Virus record (IMG/VR): IMGVR_UViG_3300021409_000073
Span: 1-40,351 of that record
Source of the DNA: a virus
DNA: 40,351 nt
Reading direction: 5' to 3' (one strand)
Shown here: positions 3 to 25,926 of the stretch, one piece after another
Position numbering within the stretch: the stretch's first letter is position 1
How the letters are laid out: each line of letters opens with the position of its first letter
Position numbers and translations under genes: made by a program
The notes under the pieces: generated by a model
Seen by the model: only the letters and a program-made list of their open reading frames with translations
The model's database searches: none
What the model was told of the DNA's origin: nothing

Positions 3-725
3 CTGGACGCTCAGTACGTGCGAACATGCCGATTTCGGGGGGCGGTGCCCCAGCGACGGCGCCGTGTGTTCCTTGTCGGATGTGCTCGAGGCTGGCAGCG
101 TGCCGCCGCGGTACTTCTTGACCCCGAAAGCCTGCGCGGGAATTCTCCGCCGCACCGCGAAGCGGGGCAAGGCGCTGCCGGCGCCATTGGCGGAGGCCCT
201 GACGGCGGTCGCGTCGCGGGCAACGTGACGGCGAAGTGGGCAAAGGGCTCGGGCGGGCCGGCGGGAGACGAGGCCTACAACCTGGTGGTGTTCGACTCGA
301 AGGGGAGCGAGGCCACCGCCGATATCAGCGGGGCCGCACCGACGCTGCGCGCGATGGGCCATGCGGGGAGCCACGCGAATGGGGGCGGCCAGCTGGCGGT
401 GGCCTTCGACGCGCAGGCCTGCGGCAAGGCCGGGCATGCGGCCGGCGCGGTGGTGGGGGCTCTGCACGGCGGCGGCCGCAGCGGCGGCCGCGCGGCTGTG
501 GCGGTCCTCGATCCCGATGTCGCGTCGCGCTGGGCGGTGCGACGGCTGACGCCTCTTGAGTGCGAGCGGCTGCAGGGGTTTCCGGACGGGTGGACGGCGG
601 TGGCCTGGCGGGGTCGGGCGGACACGCCGGACGGGGTTCGGTACCGCGCGCTGGGCAACGCGATGGCGGTGAACTGCATGGAGTGGCTGGGGCGGCGGAT
701 CGATCTGGTCCACGGACTCGGGTAG
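3..725 (+). CDS. DNA cytosine-C5 methyltransferase, C-terminal part (5' truncated by window)
   Basis: This would transfer a methyl group from SAM to C5 of cytosine in a specific DNA site. The frame is open from the left edge, and only the C-terminal part is present. Visible family motifs are VPQRRRRVFLVG (motif VIII), then a Gly/Ala-rich variable target-recognition stretch, then LTPLECERLQGFPDGW (motif IX region) and YRALGNAMAV (motif X, Gly-Asn). The catalytic PCQ and ENV motifs lie outside the window. The ending style is typical of phage-encoded enzymes. It reads towards the terminator at 932 and the tRNA fragment at 991, so it should lie just outside the prophage that starts at about 1037, perhaps in an adjacent element or in host DNA. 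Confidence 0.9.
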   Translation: MDAQYVRTCRFRGAVPQRRRRVFLVGCARGWQRAAAVLLDPESLRGNSPPHREAGQGAAGAIGGGPDGGRVAGNVTAKWAKGSGGPAGDEAYNLVVFDSKGSEATADISGAAPTLRAMGHAGSHANGGGQLAVAFDAQACGKAGHAAGAVVGALHGGGRSGGRAAVAVLDPDVASRWAVRRLTPLECERLQGFPDGWTAVAWRGRADTPDGVRYRALGNAMAVNCMEWLGRRIDLVHGLG

Positions 726-1077: not shown

Positions 1078-1251
1078 TTACGCCGCAAGCCTTTGTTCCG
1101 GCTCGATTTTCTTCCCCACATACATCAGCACTCGCACGGATTCGCCTGCAAAACCAGGGCGAAACGTGCATTCGCGGGTTGATGTGGTGTTGATGTAGCC
1201 CGGCACCGCTTCTGCTCCTTTATCATCGCTCGTCCAGCATCGAGAGATCAC
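1078..1251 (-). CDS. Possible small protein (57 aa) coupled to the 446-aa retron-neighbour gene
   Basis: A GTG codon (1249-1251) overlaps the TGA stop of the upstream gene as GTGA, the junction type used repeatedly in this window. The frame runs 57 codons to a TAA at 1078-1080. The product has two Cys, a FRPGFAGE stretch and a LMYVGKKIEP stretch; I do not recognise it. No separate Shine-Dalgarno is visible beyond the GGAGG that overlaps the junction. It may be a real small coupled gene, a decayed C-terminal fragment, or chance. Confidence 0.3.
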   Translation of the reverse strand: MISRCWTSDDKGAEAVPGYINTTSTRECTFRPGFAGESVRVLMYVGKKIEPEQRLAA

Positions 1252-2588
1252 CTCCGGTAGCTCTCAAGCCCGAGCTCGGCCCACATCCACGAGAAATCAT
1301 ACTCGGCAATCGGACTCTCGCCATGCCGGGCGCTGCGGTTTTCCAGGTACTTCAGCCAGCCGATCACCTTCTCACGCCCGCCGGCCGTGCGCACGGCCTG
1401 CCGCGGCGACTTGCCACCCAACGCCGGGATCGGCGCGTCCAGCGTTTCGCGGTAATGCCTGTCCAGGTGATCCCGCATCAGCTGGCGAGCGACTTCAGGA
1501 GGGATTTCGTCTGCGGTCTCGCGCGGCCCGTCACGCCGTTGCTCGGCCCGCATCTGCTCAACCGTCCGGATCGTGGTCAACGGTGGCCTCAGCAGATCGC
1601 CGGCAGCCGCGCTGATCAACGCCTCGACCTTTGCCGCGCGCCCGGCCGAGTTGACGGTCACGAGCAGCGTCTTGCCCTTCAGTTCCAGCGAGCCCAGAAC
1701 GGTGGCTCCCTCCATCTGCGTGTCCAGCATGATGCCGCCGCCTGCCTTGCCGCTGCGCCCCTTGCGCGCAGCGAGCCAGTTCCAGAACTTCGGCCCCTCG
1801 GGCAGGAAGTCCTTCACCTCGTCCAGCCGCTGGGCAATCGCCTTCTGTGTCACTCCGCTGGCGAGCGGGAACCGCAGATCGTGGAACAGCACATCATCGC
1901 CGTCCGAATTGGTGAACTGCGGCTGAGCTTGGGTGAGGGCACGGTCGATCTCGATGAACAGCCAGGCGGAGGTGAAAATCGGCGCGCAGCCCAACAGCTG
2001 GTCGCGGGAGAGCCGCAGCGCGTCGCGCTTCTTCAGTTTCAGGGCATCGCGAAGCCCGGCGAAAAGGAAGTCTACCGCCTCGGCGCGGAAGGGCAACAGC
2101 GCCCCGGAGATGACATGATGATCGCGTTCGGGCACCACCCGCACGGCGATCCTGTCCCACTGCTTCAGCGTGCGGGTGGCGGATTTTTCCCGCACCGTGA
2201 CCGGCGGGGCATCCGCAAGCAGATCGCGCAGTACCATCGAGGCGCCGGGCCGGACATCGCTAACCTCGTAAAGGCTGACCGGCGCATCCCGCAGCGCGGC
2301 GAAATAGGCCCGATTCAGCGCCGTTTCCTTCCAGCCGCGCCGCTTCAGGTAGAGATCGACGATGTTCCCGTCGTCATATCGCTGCCCGAGGAAATCCTCG
2401 AACCCGCAGCCCCAGAGCACGCCTGACCATTGCTCACCCAGCAGGTCGGCCACGCCGTCATGGTCGATCTCGAATTCCTCGAGCGCGGGCATCAGATGTT
2501 CGGCGACAACATCCTGCAGCCGTTCGCGCCAGTCACCCTCCCGGCCGATGAAGGCCAGAAGGCTGGAAATGTCATTGCGTTCAGCCAT
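1248..2588 (-). CDS. Unknown 446-aa protein downstream of the retron reverse transcriptase
   Basis: The function is not recognised. It starts at an ATG 22 bp after the reverse transcriptase stop, so the two are probably co-transcribed. A longer frame continues upstream through the reverse transcriptase, but that part is the antisense-like shadow of the coding gene. The middle (about residues 90-170) has the pattern SLYEVSDVRPG ... LRDLL ... WDRIAVRVV, which I associate with conserved uncharacterised bacterial proteins. The C-terminus carries LDAPIPALGGKSPRQA followed by GREKVIGWLKYLE, reminiscent of C-terminal domains of SEC-C-type or Xre/MbcA-type proteins. No catalytic motif or membrane segment is obvious. 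Its position makes it a candidate retron effector or accessory gene, which is inference only. Confidence 0.7.
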   Translation of the reverse strand: MAERNDISSLLAFIGREGDWRERLQDVVAEHLMPALEEFEIDHDGVADLLGEQWSGVLWGCGFEDFLGQRYDDGNIVDLYLKRRGWKETALNRAYFAALRDAPVSLYEVSDVRPGASMVLRDLLADAPPVTVREKSATRTLKQWDRIAVRVVPERDHHVISGALLPFRAEAVDFLFAGLRDALKLKKRDALRLSRDQLLGCAPIFTSAWLFIEIDRALTQAQPQFTNSDGDDVLFHDLRFPLASGVTQKAIAQRLDEVKDFLPEGPKFWNWLAARKGRSGKAGGGIMLDTQMEGATVLGSLELKGKTLLVTVNSAGRAAKVEALISAAAGDLLRPPLTTIRTVEQMRAEQRRDGPRETADEIPPEVARQLMRDHLDRHYRETLDAPIPALGGKSPRQAVRTAGGREKVIGWLKYLENRSARHGESPIAEYDFSWMWAELGLESYRR

Positions 2589-2610: not shown

Positions 2611-3522
2611 CTAACGACCGATCTTTCGTTGGATATCATCGCGCTGGGCAGCCATTGCCTCAGCGCGCACTCGCCACCCTGCATCGATTTGGCTGGCTTC
2701 GAAGAGACGTCCGGTGAGCCGCCTTGCCACCGTGAGCTTCTCGCGACCAAGCGGCAAGTCATCGAACAACTTCTGGTCGTCGGCAATACGGACCTGGCGC
2801 CGGTTCGGCAACCGAAGCCCGTTGTTGGTGACCGCAACCCCGGTGACGATCCGCGGCTGACCGGGCCTGAAGAGCTTGGTCTTGTGCCCCCGCAGACGTC
2901 GTTTTCCGATCACCTTCCGCGCTTCAAAAAGGAGGCGCCTCGTCGCCCCAGCGCCGGTGAACACAATGTCATCGACATAGACCGTCATGTTGCAACCGGC
3001 TGACTCCGCCAGGGCCGCCAGATCGTCGAACATGTCTTCATATGCGAAATACGAGAGGATCGGGCTTGCGCTGCTGCCGGTGGGGAGATGCCCATCCACG
3101 GTCAGGAGTTTTGCGAGGATCCCGGCTACATCTGCAGCACAAGCCATTCGGTCCAGAAAGAAGTGATAGACGGCTTGTGCACGCGCAGAGGGGTAGAACT
3201 TCCGAACATCAATCTTGACACATCCTTCGTCAACGGAATGCGCTGCGGCGTTCGATATGTACGAACGCCCCTTCTTCGCGGAGTGCAGGTAGTCCGGCGT
3301 ATCGATTCTTGCCAGAAGGTTCGCGATCCTCCGATGCACCTGCGCGAGCTTCGGCCTCGGCTCCTGGATCGAGCGCCCGGATTTCTTGTCGACCCAACGC
3401 TTGTAGGGATCGGGTTCGGCCGACAGCGCGTCCAGCTCCGCCCGAGAAAGCTTCAGACGATCCGCCAACATCTGCGGGCTCGTGACCTTGTACAGAATGG
3501 ACTGGTTACGCTGGTAGCTCAC
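2611..3522 (-). CDS. Retron-type reverse transcriptase (303 aa)
   Basis: This should prime from the 2'-OH of a guanosine in its cognate ncRNA and make msDNA. From the GTG start (M/V1) the motifs are: retron region X NAAAH (91-95), motif 3 DVRKFYPS (105-112), motif 4 LPTGSSASP (146-154), catalytic YVDD (182-185) and region Y VTG (226-228). NAxxH and VTG together mark retron RTs rather than group II intron or diversity-generating RTs, and 303 aa is the usual retron size. The GTG at 3520-3522 overlaps the TGA of the Xre gene (GTGA), so translation is coupled. The longer ATG at 3561 would overlap that gene by 43 nt and is less likely. Confidence 0.93.
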   Translation of the reverse strand: MSYQRNQSILYKVTSPQMLADRLKLSRAELDALSAEPDPYKRWVDKKSGRSIQEPRPKLAQVHRRIANLLARIDTPDYLHSAKKGRSYISNAAAHSVDEGCVKIDVRKFYPSARAQAVYHFFLDRMACAADVAGILAKLLTVDGHLPTGSSASPILSYFAYEDMFDDLAALAESAGCNMTVYVDDIVFTGAGATRRLLFEARKVIGKRRLRGHKTKLFRPGQPRIVTGVAVTNNGLRLPNRRQVRIADDQKLFDDLPLGREKLTVARRLTGRLFEASQIDAGWRVRAEAMAAQRDDIQRKIGR

Positions 3523-3827
3523 CGGCTGGCGCCCCTGAACTCGGAAATCGTAGCAGCCCAATCCAGCATCTTCAGCGCCTTGTCAGCGACGTACACCCGA
3601 ATGGCATCAGCCTTTCCGGCCTCATCCACGCGCTCCGCAAAGAGCAAGAGCGACGACATCGGTATGTCAAAGGCAGCCGAGTACTTTTCGAGAACCGCCA
3701 GCGAAACCTTTTTCTCACCGCTCTCGATTTCCGAAACATAGGATTTTGAAAGCCCGACGCGTTCGGCCACGTCAGCCTGTGTCAGGTCATGGTAGACCCG
3801 CACCAGGCGGAGAGCTTCATTCAACAT
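3519..3827 (-). CDS. Xre-family HTH regulator of the retron operon (102 aa)
   Basis: The N-terminal 65 residues form a classic lambda-repressor-like helix-turn-helix (LTQADVAERVGLSKSYVSEIESG). A roughly 37-residue tail follows, with no recognisable enzymatic motif. The ATG at 3827 is preceded by GGGAGAACA. The stop overlaps the reverse transcriptase start. Neighbouring inverted TTCGCCA repeats at 4283-4323, just upstream of the candidate ncRNA, are a plausible operator. Retron loci with an HTH partner are known, and this gene could act as a repressor, an antitoxin or a part of the msDNA-RT complex. Confidence 0.85.
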   Translation of the reverse strand: MLNEALRLVRVYHDLTQADVAERVGLSKSYVSEIESGEKKVSLAVLEKYSAAFDIPMSSLLLFAERVDEAGKADAIRVYVADKALKMLDWAATISEFRGASR

Positions 3828-3855
3828 TGTTCTCCCATCCTCCGCAGTTGAACAC

Positions 3856-4011
3856 CTAGGAGCCGTCTCTGAAGATCAGTCGCGCCAGATACACGATGGC
3901 TTTCACCATCCAGAACGCGACCATCAAGGTCCGACGTTTCCGAAGAACACGCCGGATCCAGCGACGGATCCACTGCCCGGTGCTCAGGGGCTTCACGGGT
4001 TCATGTCCCAT
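3856..4011 (-). CDS. 51-aa hydrophobic, Arg-rich small protein in the retron locus
   Basis: The ATG at 4011 follows a perfect AGGAGG (4019-4024) with a 7-nt spacer, the best ribosome-binding site in this operon, which argues for real translation. The product begins MGHEPVKPLSTGQW, has an arginine-rich amphipathic stretch (WIRRWIRRVLRKRR) and then about 20 mostly hydrophobic residues (LMVAFWMVKAIVYLARLIF). It is probably a single-span or membrane-surface peptide. It lies between the candidate retron RNA and the Xre gene, in the same orientation. A membrane-active toxin held in check by the RT-msDNA complex is an attractive but unproven role. I do not recognise a named family. Confidence 0.7.
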   Translation of the reverse strand: MGHEPVKPLSTGQWIRRWIRRVLRKRRTLMVAFWMVKAIVYLARLIFRDGS

Positions 4012-4085
4012 GTCGCAACCTCCTGGGCTTCCTCGCCGAGACCATCCCGACGAGTGTGCCGCCTTCCCAAGAGGCAATCAGGGCA

Positions 4086-4280
4086 GAGGCTATCTCCTAG
4101 GCGTCCCCGTGCCGCAACGCGAGCTGCGGACTTGAGTCGTCGGGTCGTCATCGCGGATCACATCGCGCGGATGCGATCGCCACGCCCCGAAGTGGGTAGA
4201 GGCCGAAGCCTCCTCGATCGGCGAACCGATCAGCCTGTGGCAGCTATCTCTCACCTGAGCATTGCTCGCTGGATAGCCCC
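4086..4280 (-). ncRNA. Candidate retron msr-msd RNA (~195 nt)
   Basis: On the minus strand, a1 GGGGCTATC (4272-4280) can pair with a2 GATAGCCTC (4086-4094), nine pairs with one G-U. Directly after a1 comes CAGCGAG, giving an AGC branch-site context with the likely branching G at 4269. Stem-loops follow: GAGC-AAT-GCTC (4257-4267), GATCGG-TTCG-CCGATC (4216-4231), GAGGC-TTCG-GCCTC (4199-4212), a weaker CCAC/GTGG hairpin (4180-4195), a 9-bp stem GATCGCATC/GATGTGATC (4156-4178) and CCGCA/TGCGG. This matches the msr-then-msd layout, and the RNA lies upstream of the RT genes as usual. Exact ends and the msd fold are inferred by eye. Confidence 0.68.
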
Positions 4281-4282
4281 AT

Positions 4283-4323
4283 TGGTTCGCCAATGCAAGA
4301 TCAAAATTCGCCATTGGCGAACC
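4283..4323. promoter_or_regulatory. Inverted TTCGCCA repeats, probable operator of the retron locus
   Basis: GGTTCGCCAATG (4284-4295) and CATTGGCGAACC (4312-4323) form a perfect 12-bp inverted repeat. A third TTCGCCA copy (4307-4313) sits between them, making an overlapping inner palindrome TTCGCC-ATT-GGCGAA. The array ends 3 nt upstream of the a1 repeat of the candidate ncRNA, where the promoter is expected. It is a natural binding site for the Xre protein encoded in the same operon. Confidence 0.5.
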
Positions 4324-5274: not shown

Positions 5275-5295
5275 ACGGACGCAGGCGGCGTCCGT
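5275..5295. terminator. Hairpin between convergent genes (bidirectional terminator)
   Basis: ACGGACGC (5275-5282) and GCGTCCGT (5288-5295) form an 8-bp perfect stem with a 5-nt loop. It lies between the stop of the 201-aa gene and the stop of the integrase. There is no long T-tract, so its efficiency is uncertain. Confidence 0.5.
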
Positions 5296-6572
5296 TACGC
5301 GGACTTCCGGTCGCCGTCCCGATCCCTCTGCCCTTCGCGATCATGGACCAGCGTGGGCTTGGGACGGAACACGCTGGCCACCGCATCGACGCCCGCACGG
5401 AGCGGGCCTTCCATCAGATGGGCGTAGCGCTGGGTGGTCTGCATCTGGGTGTGCCCGAGAAGCTTGCCGATCATCTCGAGCGACGCGCCGCCGCTGACCA
5501 GCAGCGAGGCGAAGGTGTGCCGCAGGTCGTGAATGCGGACGCCCTCGATCTGCGCCTCCTTCTGGATACGGATCCAGAAGCGCCGGATTTCCTTCACGGG
5601 CTGGCCCGGCACATCGCCGGGGAAGAGCCAGGGGTTGCCCTTGGGGACCAGTAGCCGCCGCTGGCGCACGATGGCCGCCACATCCTCGGAAATCGGCACG
5701 CGGTGCACGCGGCGCTGCTTGGTGGTGGCCGCCGGTTTCGACCAGAGGCAGTGTTCCAGATCGAACTGCTCGAACCGGGACTGCCGGACCTCGCCCACCC
5801 GGGCGCCGGTCAGCATGCAGATCCGGATGATGCCCGCCGCGCGCTGATCCTCCGCCGCGTCCAGCGCCCTGGCCAGCTGGTCGATCTCGTCCTTCGACAG
5901 GAAGCGCTCGCGCGGGTTCTCGATCCGGCGAAAGAAGCCGTTCGCGGGGTTGTCCGTGCGCCAGCCCCATTCGATGGCGAGGTTGAACATCTTGCGTAGC
6001 ACCTCGCCCACGCGGTTGGCGCGCACCGGCGTGGGCTTCGGGCCCTGCAGCTTGCGGGCTCGGTTGTTGGGCTTTGCCTTGCTCGGCCGGGCGCGCCCCT
6101 CGGCGATCTTCGCCAGCAGCTTCTCGACATCGGGTTTGGTGATCTCGGTCACGAGCTTCCGGCCCCAGTGCGGCGCGACCAGCTTGGCCAGCATGGATTT
6201 CTGATCGGCCGCGCTCACAGGCGCGAGCCGCGGAACGTGTTCCTTCAGGTAGCGGTCGATCAGATCCTGAAACCGCGGCGCCTCGCGGCGCCTGGAACGC
6301 TCGCCGAGTGGATCGCCCCCGGCATCGACCATGCGGCGCAGCTCCCTGGCACGCTCGCGGGCCGCGGTGACCGACCATTCCGGCCAGCGGGCGAATGTCA
6401 TCCGGCGCTGACGCCCGTCGACGCGGTAGTCGAAGGTGAAGGCCCGCCCGCCGCCGCGATAGATGCAGACGGCAAATCCGCGAATGTCGGCATCGAAGAT
6501 CTGATAGTCCCGCCCCGGCACCGGAACGGCATCGCGCAGGATCTTCTCTGACAGACGTTCGCGGTTCGGCAT
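5295..6572 (-). CDS. int: Tyrosine-type site-specific integrase (425 aa)
   Basis: This catalyses integration and excision of the element by strand exchange at att sites. The N-terminal 90 residues resemble the DUF4102 arm-binding domain of tRNA-targeting phage and island integrases (LSEKILRDAVPVPGRDYQIFDADIRG is split here as LSEKILRDAV and YQIFDADIRGFAV). The catalytic domain shows TGARVGEVRQ (first Arg, near residue 255), HDLRHTFAS (near 345), LGHTQMQTTQRYAHL (His box and nucleophile Tyr, near 380). The ATG at 6572 with AGAGGG upstream is preferred over the upstream ATG at 6599. The tRNA fragment at 991-1037 is the likely att, about 4.3 kb away because retron cargo lies between. Confidence 0.93.
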   Translation of the reverse strand: MPNRERLSEKILRDAVPVPGRDYQIFDADIRGFAVCIYRGGGRAFTFDYRVDGRQRRMTFARWPEWSVTAARERARELRRMVDAGGDPLGERSRRREAPRFQDLIDRYLKEHVPRLAPVSAADQKSMLAKLVAPHWGRKLVTEITKPDVEKLLAKIAEGRARPSKAKPNNRARKLQGPKPTPVRANRVGEVLRKMFNLAIEWGWRTDNPANGFFRRIENPRERFLSKDEIDQLARALDAAEDQRAAGIIRICMLTGARVGEVRQSRFEQFDLEHCLWSKPAATTKQRRVHRVPISEDVAAIVRQRRLLVPKGNPWLFPGDVPGQPVKEIRRFWIRIQKEAQIEGVRIHDLRHTFASLLVSGGASLEMIGKLLGHTQMQTTQRYAHLMEGPLRAGVDAVASVFRPKPTLVHDREGQRDRDGDRKSA

Positions 6573-6656
6573 CGTCAGTGGCCCTCTTCTCGTCTCCATG
6601 ACGCGTGAATTCAAAGCGATAGCAAGGCAATCATGGCCGGTGCCGAGGCGTCGAGG

Positions 6657-6710
6657 CAGCGGCCGGCAGTCACCGGCAGTGACGCTGCCAGAGCGGTGCC
6701 ACCCCAAGAT
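6657..6710 (-). repeat. Copy A of a ~55-bp control-region repeat
   Basis: On the minus strand this reads GGGGTGGCACC (6695-6705 complement), then a short spacer, then GTCACTGCCGGTGACTGCCGG (complement of 6663-6683). It is an inverted counterpart of the copy at 7069-7134. It begins about 85 bp upstream of the integrase start, so it could regulate int. Confidence 0.6.
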
Positions 6711-23290: not shown

Positions 23291-24553
23291 ATGGACCTCG
23301 TCTTCGCGCCGAGCCAGGTAGAGTCCTGGCCGATTGCCCGACTGCGCCCCTATGCCCGCAATGCCAAGATGCATGGCGCCGACCAGGTGGCGAAGATCGC
23401 CGCGAGCATGGCCAAGTTCGGCTGGACCGTCCCCTGCATGGTGGCCGACGACGGCGAACTGATCGCGGGCCATGGCCGGGTGCTGGCGGCCACGATGCTC
23501 GGGCTGACGGAGGCGCCGGTGATCCGGCTGAGCCACCTCGACGAGGCGGAACGCCGGGCCTACCGGATTGCCGACAACAAGCTGACGGAACTGGGCGAGT
23601 GGGACGAGGCCCTGCTGCGCGACGAGATCGCGGAGCTTTTGGCTGAGGATTTCGACCTGACCCTGCTCGGCATCAGCGACGATGACCTCGATGCGCTGCT
23701 GCGGGATCCCGAGGCGCTGGGCGGGGAAGGTCCGATCGAGGGCGAGGACGATGTGCCCGAGTTGCCGGTCACGCCGGTGTCGGTGCCTGGCGACCTCTGG
23801 CAGCTGGGCGGGCATCGGCTGATCTGTGGCGACAGCACCGCGGCCGATGTGGTTGGGCGGCTGCTCGGCGATGTGCGTCCCCTGCTGATGGTGACCGATC
23901 CGCCCTATGGCGTCGAATACGATCCCTCCTGGCGCAACCAGGCGGGCGCGGCCAAGACGAAACGCACCGGCAAGGTGCTGAACGACGACCGGGCAGACTG
24001 GCGCGAGGCATGGACGCTGTTCCCCGGCGACGTCGCCTATGTCTGGCACGGCGCGCTGCATGCTGCGACCGTGGCCGACAGCCTGACCGCAGCGGGTTTC
24101 GCCATCCGGTCGCAGATCATCTGGGCCAAGGACCGGCTGGTCCTCAGCCGAGGCGATTACCACTGGCAGCATGAACCCTGCTGGTATGCGGTGCGCGCCA
24201 AGGGCAAGGGCCACTGGGCCGGGGACCGCAAACAGACGACGCTCTGGCAGATCGCCAACCGGGATCAGGATGCCGACACGGTGCATGGCACGCAGAAGCC
24301 GGTGGAATGCATGCGGCGGCCGATCCTGAACAACTCCAGCCCTGGTCAGGCGGTCTATGAACCGTTCATGGGATCCGGCACGACCCTGATCGCGGCCGAG
24401 ACAACAGGCCGTGTCTGCCTCGGCATTGAGTTGAACCCGGCCTATGTCGACGTGGCCATCGAGCGCTGGCAAGTCTTCACGGGTCAGGAGGCCGTGCTGG
24501 CAGAAACCGGCGAGACGTTTACGGCCCTGAAAGCCCAGCGGCACGCAGCATGA
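23291..24553 (+). CDS. ParB-domain plus DNA methyltransferase fusion, DPPY type (420 aa)
   Basis: Residues 1-115 form a ParB/sulfiredoxin-like N-terminal domain (ARLRPYARNAKMH-type start, GELIAGHGRVLAA, YRIADNKLTELGEWD). The C-terminal half is a beta-class amino-methyltransferase: DPPYGVEYD (motif IV, near residue 204), then VHGTQKPVECM and FMGSGTTLIAA (motif I, near 359). The DPPY motif suggests N6-adenine methylation. Fusions of this kind are common in phages of alphaproteobacteria and may modify phage DNA before packaging. It is followed, with an ATGA overlap, by a close paralogue. Confidence 0.9.
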   Translation: MDLVFAPSQVESWPIARLRPYARNAKMHGADQVAKIAASMAKFGWTVPCMVADDGELIAGHGRVLAATMLGLTEAPVIRLSHLDEAERRAYRIADNKLTELGEWDEALLRDEIAELLAEDFDLTLLGISDDDLDALLRDPEALGGEGPIEGEDDVPELPVTPVSVPGDLWQLGGHRLICGDSTAADVVGRLLGDVRPLLMVTDPPYGVEYDPSWRNQAGAAKTKRTGKVLNDDRADWREAWTLFPGDVAYVWHGALHAATVADSLTAAGFAIRSQIIWAKDRLVLSRGDYHWQHEPCWYAVRAKGKGHWAGDRKQTTLWQIANRDQDADTVHGTQKPVECMRRPILNNSSPGQAVYEPFMGSGTTLIAAETTGRVCLGIELNPAYVDVAIERWQVFTGQEAVLAETGETFTALKAQRHAA

Positions 24554-25926
24554 CGATGCATCTGCGCCCGAGCCAGATCGCCTTCTGGCCGCTGGATCGG
24601 CTGAAACCCTACGCCCGGAACGCCAAGACCCACGACGACGACCAGGTGGCGAAGATCGCTGCGAGCATGACCGAGTTCGGCTGGACTGTCCCCTGCCTCG
24701 TTGCCGCCGACGGCGAGCTGATCGCAGGCCATGGCCGCGTGCTGGCCGCCGCGCAGCTCGGGCTGGCCGAGGCACCGGTCATCGTGCTGGACCATCTGAC
24801 CGAGGCGCAGCGTCGCGCTTACCGGATCGCCGACAACCGGCTGACCGAACTGGGGGGATGGGATGACGCCCTGCTCGTCGAGGAGCTGCGGGGTCTGCTG
24901 GCCGAGGATTTCGACCTCGGGCTGATCGGGATCCCCGAGGACGAGTTGGACGCGTTGCTGCACGACGCCGACGACGACCGCGCGCCGATCGACGATGACA
25001 CCGCCGATACGATCCCCGATGCCCCGGCCGAACCTATCACCCGGCCGGGCGACATCTGGGCGCTGGGCGAACATCGCCTGATCTGCGGCGATGCCACCGA
25101 TCCGGGTGTAGTGGCACGGCTGATGGATGGCGCGCAGGCCTCGCTGATGTTCACCTCCCCGCCCTATGCCCAGCAGCGCGACTATGGCGCCGCGAAGGAG
25201 AAGGTCGGTGACTGGGATGCGCTGATGCAGGGCGTCTTCACCTCGGCGCCCGTCACCGCCGATGCCCAGCTGCTAGTCAACCTCGGCCTCGTCCACCGCG
25301 ATGGCGAATGGATCCCGTATTGGGACGACTGGACCCTTTGGATGCGCGCGCAGGGCTGGCGGCGGTTCGGCTGGTATGTCTGGGACCAGGGGCCCGGCCT
25401 TCCCGGTGACTGGAACGGGCGGCTGGCGCCGTCGCACGAGTTCATCTTCCACTTCAACCGGCAGCCCCGGAAGCCGAACAAGACGGTCGCGAGCAAGCAC
25501 GCGGGCGAAACCCTTGGCGGCGGTGGTCTGCGCGGGGCCGACGGCACGGTCCATCGCAAGACTGGCTTTGGTAACGCGATTCAGAGCCACCGCATTCCGG
25601 ACAGCGTCTTCCGCATCATGCGCCACAAAGGAGGCTTGGGCGCCGCCGGATCGCACCCGGCCGTGTTCCCGGTGGCGCTGGTCGAGGTGGTGCTCGAGGC
25701 CTTCACCGATCCCGGCGACCTGGTGTTCGAGCCCTTCTGCGGCTCCGGCACCCAGCTGATCGCCGCCGAACGCACCGGGAGGCGCTGCTGTGCCGTGGAA
25801 CTGGACCCGATCTATTGCGACGTCGCCGTGCGACGGTGGGAGATGGCGACGGGGCGAGCGGCCCACCGAATCAGCGAACAGGAGGAGGCCAGAAAACCGG
25901 CGCACCGGCCGAGGAAGCGGTCATGA
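24550..25926 (+). CDS. ParB-domain plus DNA methyltransferase fusion, SPPY type (458 aa)
   Basis: The ParB-like N-terminal 115 residues are strikingly similar to the preceding protein (ARNAKTHDDDQVAKIAASM, GELIAGHGRVLAAAQLGLAE), indicating tandem duplication. The methyltransferase half has diverged: its motif IV is TSPPYAQQRDYG (near residue 202) and motif I is FCGSGTQLIAAE (near 395). SPPY is usual in N4-cytosine enzymes, although some adenine enzymes also use it. A 110-residue insert between them holds the target-recognition region. Its start overlaps the first copy and its stop overlaps the next gene, so all three are coupled. Confidence 0.9.
   Translation: MTMHLRPSQIAFWPLDRLKPYARNAKTHDDDQVAKIAASMTEFGWTVPCLVAADGELIAGHGRVLAAAQLGLAEAPVIVLDHLTEAQRRAYRIADNRLTELGGWDDALLVEELRGLLAEDFDLGLIGIPEDELDALLHDADDDRAPIDDDTADTIPDAPAEPITRPGDIWALGEHRLICGDATDPGVVARLMDGAQASLMFTSPPYAQQRDYGAAKEKVGDWDALMQGVFTSAPVTADAQLLVNLGLVHRDGEWIPYWDDWTLWMRAQGWRRFGWYVWDQGPGLPGDWNGRLAPSHEFIFHFNRQPRKPNKTVASKHAGETLGGGGLRGADGTVHRKTGFGNAIQSHRIPDSVFRIMRHKGGLGAAGSHPAVFPVALVEVVLEAFTDPGDLVFEPFCGSGTQLIAAERTGRRCCAVELDPIYCDVAVRRWEMATGRAAHRISEQEEARKPAHRPRKRS

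Follow-up and report, generated by a model that had tools for sequence, protein, structure and literature searches.

Two segments of a type VI retron RNA are complementary to the early codons of a small peptide gene in the same locus

The virus record IMGVR_UViG_3300021409_000073, analysed over its whole length of 40,351 nucleotides (nt) and called the window below, carries on its minus strand what its sequence identifies as a type VI retron on a prophage-like element. In order of transcription, a structured RNA is followed by an open reading frame (ORF) of 51 amino acids (aa), an Xre-type gene and a reverse transcriptase (RT) gene. Two short segments of the retron RNA, a 5' element and a 3' element, complement the early part of the peptide ORF in most relatives examined. 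With a confidence slightly better than even, the locus can be understood as a retron that works like a type I toxin-antitoxin pair: the retron RNA would silence a membrane-active peptide at the RNA level. The role of the retron, a bacterial element built around an RT, is probably anti-phage defence.

The initial annotation of this DNA recognized a complete retron, and the RT motifs, a type VI RT model and covariation of the a1/a2 stem bear it out. The motifs it named, NAAAH (region X), YVDD and VTG (region Y), are all present, and the key residues (N104, A105, H108, Y195, D197, D198, T240 and G241, in the numbering of a 316-aa form) are invariant in a 10-sequence RT alignment. Against PADLOC, the RT matches RT_VI (E 1.5e-81, 271.7 bits), with RT_III-A as the next type (8.8e-37, 124.7 bits), and the Xre protein matches HTH_VI, a helix-turn-helix (HTH) model (2.4e-34); in Pfam the two match RVT_1 (4.2e-8) and HTH_3 (1.2e-13), respectively. 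By profile, the RT resembles those of retrons more closely than it does the other RTs of bacteria: the top PADLOC models, among the best 25 of 41 matches, are retron models; non-retron models are weak (group II, E 0.072; Drt3a, 0.0078); NCBIfam gives sub-cut-off matches alone, of which the best are retron RTs; and the solved chains that match are retron RTs wherever they are named as such. Rfam, run over the whole window, has no match, the non-coding RNA (ncRNA) included.

The same annotation held that the peptide and Xre protein together fit no known set of retron partners, so that the subtype might be undescribed or little studied. The first part has to be given up: an RT, an Xre-type HTH protein and a small protein are the type VI set (PADLOC; PMC8541194, in its accessible text), and the set is complete in the window, with the 51-aa ORF as the small protein. 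Because the RT and the Xre protein match the PADLOC type VI models, the subtype is not undescribed. The accessible text of PMC8541194 states that type VI RT genes accompany DNA-binding proteins and ‘small auxiliary proteins’ (citing Mestre 2020); that a regulator gene precedes the RT gene in phages KS5, P2_2H1, ST147-VIM1phi7.1 and MuM16-1; that in two of these phages the regulator is itself preceded by a short ORF; and that the MuM16-1 pair is assigned to type VI. ‘Little studied’ is fair: the literature searched, with subscription papers and preprints thinly covered, contained no mechanism for a type VI retron and no RNA control of a type VI peptide.

The relatives come from a profile scan with a 10-RT alignment, which gave the best 80 of 133 confirmed loci from genome contigs and 41 from viral contigs. 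With the window and earlier fetches counted, 133 loci had an RT match, and 113 had an Xre match nearby; the other 20, some of which begin at contig ends and some of which resemble other kinds of RT, were dropped. Two more had too little upstream DNA, and merging identical upstream regions left 87 non-redundant loci. A candidate peptide ORF precedes Xre in 83 of these, under a simple, permissive rule and with some starts picked by hand (L021, L041, L059, L060, L097, L104 and L106); because the rule is permissive, passing it proves little by itself. The four dropped at this step (L004, L042, L084 and L086) had an Xre start misplaced by the rule or no credible peptide, although inspection by eye shows one in L004. 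Another close relative, L139, has the peptide and is counted nowhere. Similarity of the leaders reduced the 83 loci to 47. A later set of ten plasmid loci was fetched after the rule had been fixed; one (L156) lacked upstream DNA and two (L149 and L151) were near-copies, which left seven. The initial annotation had proposed a search for the same four-part locus elsewhere, and it does recur, with RTs ~31-89% identical to that of the window; the arrangement is therefore not a matter of chance. Of 5,426 complete E. coli genomes, 99 carry a form like that of P2_2H1 (at least 60% identity). A DNA search of plasmids with the ncRNA-peptide stretch itself found no match. One Xenorhabdus hominickii genome has type VI loci on two separate contigs (L082 and L083); in L082 the RT match begins 666 nt from Xre, unusually far, and the RT is perhaps split or frame-shifted.

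The complementarity stands out in an unsupervised map, in which 105 pairs of 36-nt intervals (spanning -340 to +146 relative to the peptide start, the two starts of a pair separated by 60 nt or more) were scored in the 47 loci by comparing each locus against itself with the same locus against others. Only the a1/a2 stem, the pairings of the two elements with the ORF and one neighbour exceed z 5. The strongest pair joins -100 with +20, that is, the 3' element next to a2 with the ORF (z 16.3; neighbour -100 with -10, z 7.2); -280 with -10 joins the 5' tip of the RNA to the early codons (z 8.0; neighbour -250 with -10, z 4.4); and -250 with -70 is the a1/a2 stem (z 6.4), the covariation across homologues for which the initial annotation had asked. 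The map repeats, without chosen intervals, what targeted tests had given. A first test with wide intervals and codon-shuffled ORFs gave a mild signal (p<=0.1 in 15 of 47 loci; controls 5 and 4), and the clustering of positions seen in it set the intervals for the 3' element. For 32 of 47 loci the 3' element alone reaches p<=0.05 in those intervals, and the observed mean is not attained in any of 20,000 permutations; z is 0.8-0.9 in controls on later ORF codons, the first codons of Xre and the central part of the ncRNA. The 5' element alone, likewise in set intervals, is significant in 15 of 47 loci (z 8.9). When the elements are required to lie side by side on the ORF, the two-part match is significant in 35 of 47 loci, the window among them (z 17.2; controls z 1.4 with 5/47 and z 0.7 with 0/47). 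The two targets do adjoin: in the 10 loci where each element is significant alone, the gap between them is -2 to +2 nt. The order of parts is also regular. In the 21 loci whose elements are clear, each element precedes one strand of the stem, the 5' element preceding a1 and the 3' element a2 (z 5.1, reached by 1 of 20,000; control with the flanks before the elements, z 2.2). Four of the seven later plasmid loci have the two-part match at p<=0.05 (L148, L150, L152 and L153), including Staphylococcus and Enterococcus, and three reach that level with the 3' element tested by itself (L147, L148 and L150).

In the window, TGCTCAGG pairs with CCTGAGCA and CTGCCC with GGGCAG, the two targets lying two nt apart; the 5' element is significant alone (p 0.02). 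Throughout the window's clade the two helices on the ORF are intact (126 of 126 cells paired), with one compensatory pair in each: L016 and L017 carry a double change in either helix, one exchanging Ser for Asn in the peptide and the other silent in a Gln codon. Compensatory changes of the same kind occur in other clades, for example between L082 and L130 and between L039 and L054. In Peduovirus P2_2H1 (L007), a P2-like form from E. coli, the 3' element is TGCTGTTC and its target GAACAGCA.

The leader between the ncRNA and the peptide ORF has a structure of its own. Nine close relatives share a conserved block that runs from about the transcript start through the ncRNA into the peptide ORF, with the promoter region partly conserved. 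RNAalifold, unprompted, pairs an anti-Shine-Dalgarno segment, CCTCTTGGG, with CCCAGGAGG, and also pairs the 5' tip of the RNA with the peptide ORF. A fixed structure of 31 pairs is paired in 99.3% of cells, slid versions of it in at most 53%; six pairs are changed on both sides, a number reached by 3 of 500 shuffles, while further pair types are not unusual (356 of 500 shuffles). In the hairpin that hides the Shine-Dalgarno sequence, every counted cell is paired in the nine relatives, and of 19 pairs 12 are invariant, three changed on one side and four on both; one of the nine pairs of the Shine-Dalgarno stem varies, on one side only, and the two-sided changes fall in four of the 10 pairs of the inner stem. 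Over the 47 loci, the peptide's Shine-Dalgarno sequence is less accessible than 90% of shuffles in 21, that of Xre in three, by a shuffle of two-base blocks that is an approximation. The a1/a2 stem holds in 34 of 36 counted cells of the window's clade. The RNA that the initial annotation placed at 4086-4280 is real, with shifted bounds: the transcript probably starts at ~4263, as the -10-like box at 4270-4275 suggests, and a2 reaches 4082. GAGGAGG also occurs inside the ncRNA, which prompted an early idea that RT-DNA (reverse-transcribed DNA) might mask the Shine-Dalgarno sequence; the map above scores complementarity, whereas this idea calls for direct repeats.

Synonymous sites tell a similar story. 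The proportion of synonymous change (pS) in peptide codons 2-15 is below that of the later codons in eight of eight clades and below that of Xre in eight of eight (several clades consist of one pair of loci; clade E of the whole-peptide comparison was left out of this one); in the window's clade the values are 0.155 for codons 2-15, 0.232 for the later codons and 0.587 for Xre. Over the whole peptide, all 36 pairs of loci from the window's clade show less synonymous change than in Xre. The median proportion of non-synonymous change (pN) over the whole peptide is below the median pS in nine of nine clades; in codons 2-15 pN exceeds pS in clades C, H and I. On our reading, the peptide ORF is maintained as protein and as RNA alike. 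Gene conversion may account for the low synonymous change, in group A alone; yet the pattern is found in all eight clades. These data bear on a more conventional account, in which a complex of RT, ncRNA and reverse-transcribed DNA (RT-DNA) restrains the peptide or Xre by protein contact and RNA pairing does no more than fine-tune. That account follows the general scheme in the accessible text of PMC12548924 and the Kva2 case in that of PMC13405049; it predicts neither covarying RNA-ORF helices nor low synonymous change in the early codons, and we think it improbable.

The silencing interpretation takes the peptide to be the effector, and probably a small membrane-active toxin, as its composition suggests. 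The 51-aa peptide, without a match in Pfam, PADLOC or NCBIfam, has a basic N-terminal half and a hydrophobic C-terminal half. Over the 47 loci the median length is 54 aa and the median net charge +7, and the C-terminal half is the more hydrophobic in 47 of 47, a count to which the partly manual choice of candidates may contribute. An ORF with a ribosome site ends 16-60 nt before Xre in 82 of 83 loci; relatives from several phyla have the peptide, and a candidate is present in all seven later plasmid loci. Upstream lies an operator-like palindrome: of the 47 upstream regions, 31 have TTCGC and GCGAA with a 5-nt spacer (base shuffles predict 0.02), and 38 have the shorter TCGC/GCGA with a spacer of 3-6 nt (0.61 predicted), 37 of these with spacer 5. 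Its distance from the peptide start is 280-350 nt in most loci (range 259-401), and it recurs in five of the seven later plasmid loci; L007 is not among the loci that have it. The Xre protein is the obvious candidate for its ligand, and is read as a regulator because the palindrome is upstream. One could suppose instead that the peptide has a regulatory or leader function and that Xre or another gene is the effector. In several clades the peptide is only moderately hydrophobic, and its toxicity is itself a prediction; set against this are the consistent composition just given, with candidates partly picked by hand, and the palindrome, which suggests that Xre is the regulator. We rank this as the least probable of the alternatives.

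Put together, the proposal that retron RNA silences the peptide would run as follows. One transcript would carry ncRNA, peptide, Xre and RT; Xre would probably repress its promoter through the TTCGC-N5-GCGAA palindrome; in the window's clade and many others a hairpin would hide the Shine-Dalgarno sequence of the peptide; the 5'-terminal segment immediately preceding a1 and the segment that coincides with a2 or immediately precedes it would pair side by side with peptide codons ~4-13. The retron RNA would then act as antitoxin to the toxin of its own locus, whether in cis, within the transcript that carries both, or in trans, as a multicopy RNA. Were a phage to interfere with the retron RNA, the RT or the RT-DNA, the ORF would become accessible, and translation of the peptide would halt the growth of the infected cell. 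A broader proposal is held more tentatively, at somewhat short of even: that type VI effectors are controlled by base pairing and not by protein sequestration; that the antisense is in two parts; that, with one part lying at the start of copying in most clades, synthesis of RT-DNA and blocking of the mRNA compete for the same bases; and that the retron would then be a type I toxin-antitoxin system in which the RT reads, consumes or mimics the antitoxin RNA.

Several findings weigh against the proposal. The support is computational throughout, and pairing by itself would suit activation as well as repression. The two-part test fails in 12 of 47 loci, including L065 (Rhodobacterales group C) and all four of clade E (L043, L046, L049 and L062), and in three of the seven later loci, of which L154 and L155 fail both tests; L040 lacks the pairing seen in L039 and L054 of the same clade. 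The window's 3' pairing spans only 6 base pairs, overlaps a2 and has p 0.09 alone, and a rival 6-mer of equal length exists. Both double changes in the window's clade set L016 and L017 apart from the other loci, and at least as many arise in 89 of 500 shuffles. The peptide's Shine-Dalgarno sequence is not masked, by the measure given above, in 26 of 47 loci. Whole-peptide pS is below that of Xre in 57 of 78 pairs of clade B and in none of the one pair of clade F. Retron RTs begin copying beside a2. The 3' element occupies that expected start in most clades; RT activity would therefore erase it there, and copying and ORF blocking would be mutually exclusive.

This last point invites the opposite arrangement, with reverse transcription as an ON switch: copying together with RNase H would strip the blocking RNA, RT activity raised by infection would license translation of the toxin, and the RT-DNA, having the sequence of the toxin ORF, could also soak up more of the antisense RNA. 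The position directly 5' of a2 that this scheme calls for is that of the 3' element in the majority of the 21 loci with clear elements; in the window and its clade, however, element and a2 overlap, which would leave the element uncopied, and the RT and RT-DNA of characterised retrons are known to hold the effector in check, not to set it free. We regard the scheme as unlikely.

Topology raises a further alternative. By order of parts, the helix of 5' element and ORF is nested with a1/a2 and the Shine-Dalgarno hairpin, and therefore all three can coexist in cis. The helix of 3' element and ORF crosses a1/a2, and so must be a pseudoknot, an alternative to a1/a2, or formed in trans; in cis, the 3' pairing and a1/a2 may exclude each other, again to the detriment of silencing. 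The pairing could accordingly belong to a longer fold of the retron RNA or to a ribosome-recruiting pseudoknot, serving RT priming or activating translation of the peptide. There is precedent in the accessible texts on the toxin mRNAs tisB (PMC7708055) and timP (PMC11228461; commentary PMC11295053), which pseudoknots activate. Those pseudoknots sit in the 5' untranslated region, whereas the pairing here falls within the coding region (~+9 to +38), and a ribosome could pass only by melting it; we consider this possibility also unlikely, marginally more so than the ON switch. Silencing by the retron RNA thus stays the reading that we favour.

The features are collected in the table below. The coupling of the upstream genes described initially (AGGAGG before the 51-aa ORF, then Xre, then a GTGA junction to the RT) was located in every part. 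The RT likely starts at the GTG at 3522, which gives 303 aa and the GTGA overlap with the Xre stop; an alternative TTG at 3561 gives 316 aa. The palindrome, the helix hiding the Shine-Dalgarno sequence, the two ORF-complementary RNA stretches and a 446-aa ORF downstream had escaped the initial annotation.

Table. Features of the retron locus in the window
Feature	Position	Strand	Basis
Retron reverse transcriptase, type VI	2611..3522	-	PADLOC RT_VI, invariant motifs, Pfam RVT_1, solved chains
Xre/Cro-type HTH protein (HTH_VI), putative autorepressor	3519..3827	-	PADLOC HTH_VI, Pfam HTH_3
51-aa peptide, putative membrane-active effector	3856..4011	-	ATG at 4011, stop codon ends 3856
ORF target GGGCAG of 3' element	3973..3978	-	2 nt past 5' target; two-part test
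ORF target CCTGAGCA of 5' element	3981..3988	-	CG to UA double change in L016, L017
Peptide Shine-Dalgarno AGGAGG	4019..4024	-	Sequence
Hairpin hiding peptide Shine-Dalgarno	4019..4074	-	4066-4074 with 4019-4027; inner stem within 4031-4056; RNAalifold
3' element CTGCCC, overlaps a2 in window's clade	4081..4086	-	CG to UA double change in L016, L017
Retron ncRNA (msr-msd)	4082..4263	-	Conservation block and a1/a2 covariation; 5' end predicted
a1 and a2	a1 ~4248-4255, a2 ~4082-4088	-	a1/a2 covariation over loci
5' element TGCTCAGG, complements peptide codons 8-11	4254..4261	-	Complementarity tests
Promoter-like -35 TTGCAT (4293-4298), 17-nt spacer, -10 TATCCA (4270-4275), putative	4270..4298	-	By eye
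Operator-like palindrome TTCGC-N5-GCGAA	4307..4321	.	Recurs upstream in relatives

The retron lies between an integrase (5295-6707, phrog_1) and a tRNA-like sequence (~995-1045), a position that resembles that of cargo at a prophage end. The latter sequence, on the minus strand, resembles the 3' part of tRNA-Met by eye and is a candidate attachment site; ARAGORN reports no tRNA there. The 446-aa ORF (1248-2588, minus strand) has no match in PADLOC, NCBIfam or PHROGs, and in Pfam only a sub-threshold one. It was considered as a part of the system and rejected: tblastn finds it only in the window and the close relatives L002, L003, L013 and L015 (plus duplicate records), where the copies are 88-94% identical and follow the RT, and it is absent from the other loci examined, including L014 and L016-L018. 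Beyond the candidate attachment site, an ORF at 18-725 (plus strand) ends in a C-5 cytosine methylase domain (Pfam). Elsewhere in the window, an ORF at 24550-25926 (plus strand) joins a ParB-like N-terminal part to a DNA methyltransferase C-terminal part (PHROGs). Among the plasmid loci, L148, L149 and L153 have an annotated Hok/Gef or Fst type I toxin ~0.5 kb or less downstream of the RT.

The type of locus is known, then, and what is new is the wiring between RNA and ORF, although the pairing may be published elsewhere. With the type VI retrons of phages KS5, P2_2H1, ST147-VIM1phi7.1 and MuM16-1 the window shares the RT, the Xre-type HTH protein and the small protein; the pairing of the RNA with the small ORF, the masked Shine-Dalgarno sequence and the common palindrome go beyond the accessible part of the account in PMC8541194. 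With type I toxin-antitoxin systems (hok/sok; tisB/istR1 and timPR in the accessible texts cited above) it shares a basic-hydrophobic peptide, a masked Shine-Dalgarno sequence, long-range pairing and an RNA complementary to the mRNA; it differs in that the complementary RNA is the same-strand leader of a retron and the template of an RT, and in that the toxicity of the peptide is a prediction. With other retrons (Ec86, Ec67 and Ec78; Kva2, from the accessible text of PMC13405049) it shares the RT family and its motifs, the msr-msd RNA with a1/a2, and the nearest solved chains; their effectors are restrained as proteins, whereas the evidence here points to control of the effector mRNA. If the pairing does control the peptide, this would be a class of retron that guards an mRNA and not a protein, and that joins two logics of defence in one locus.

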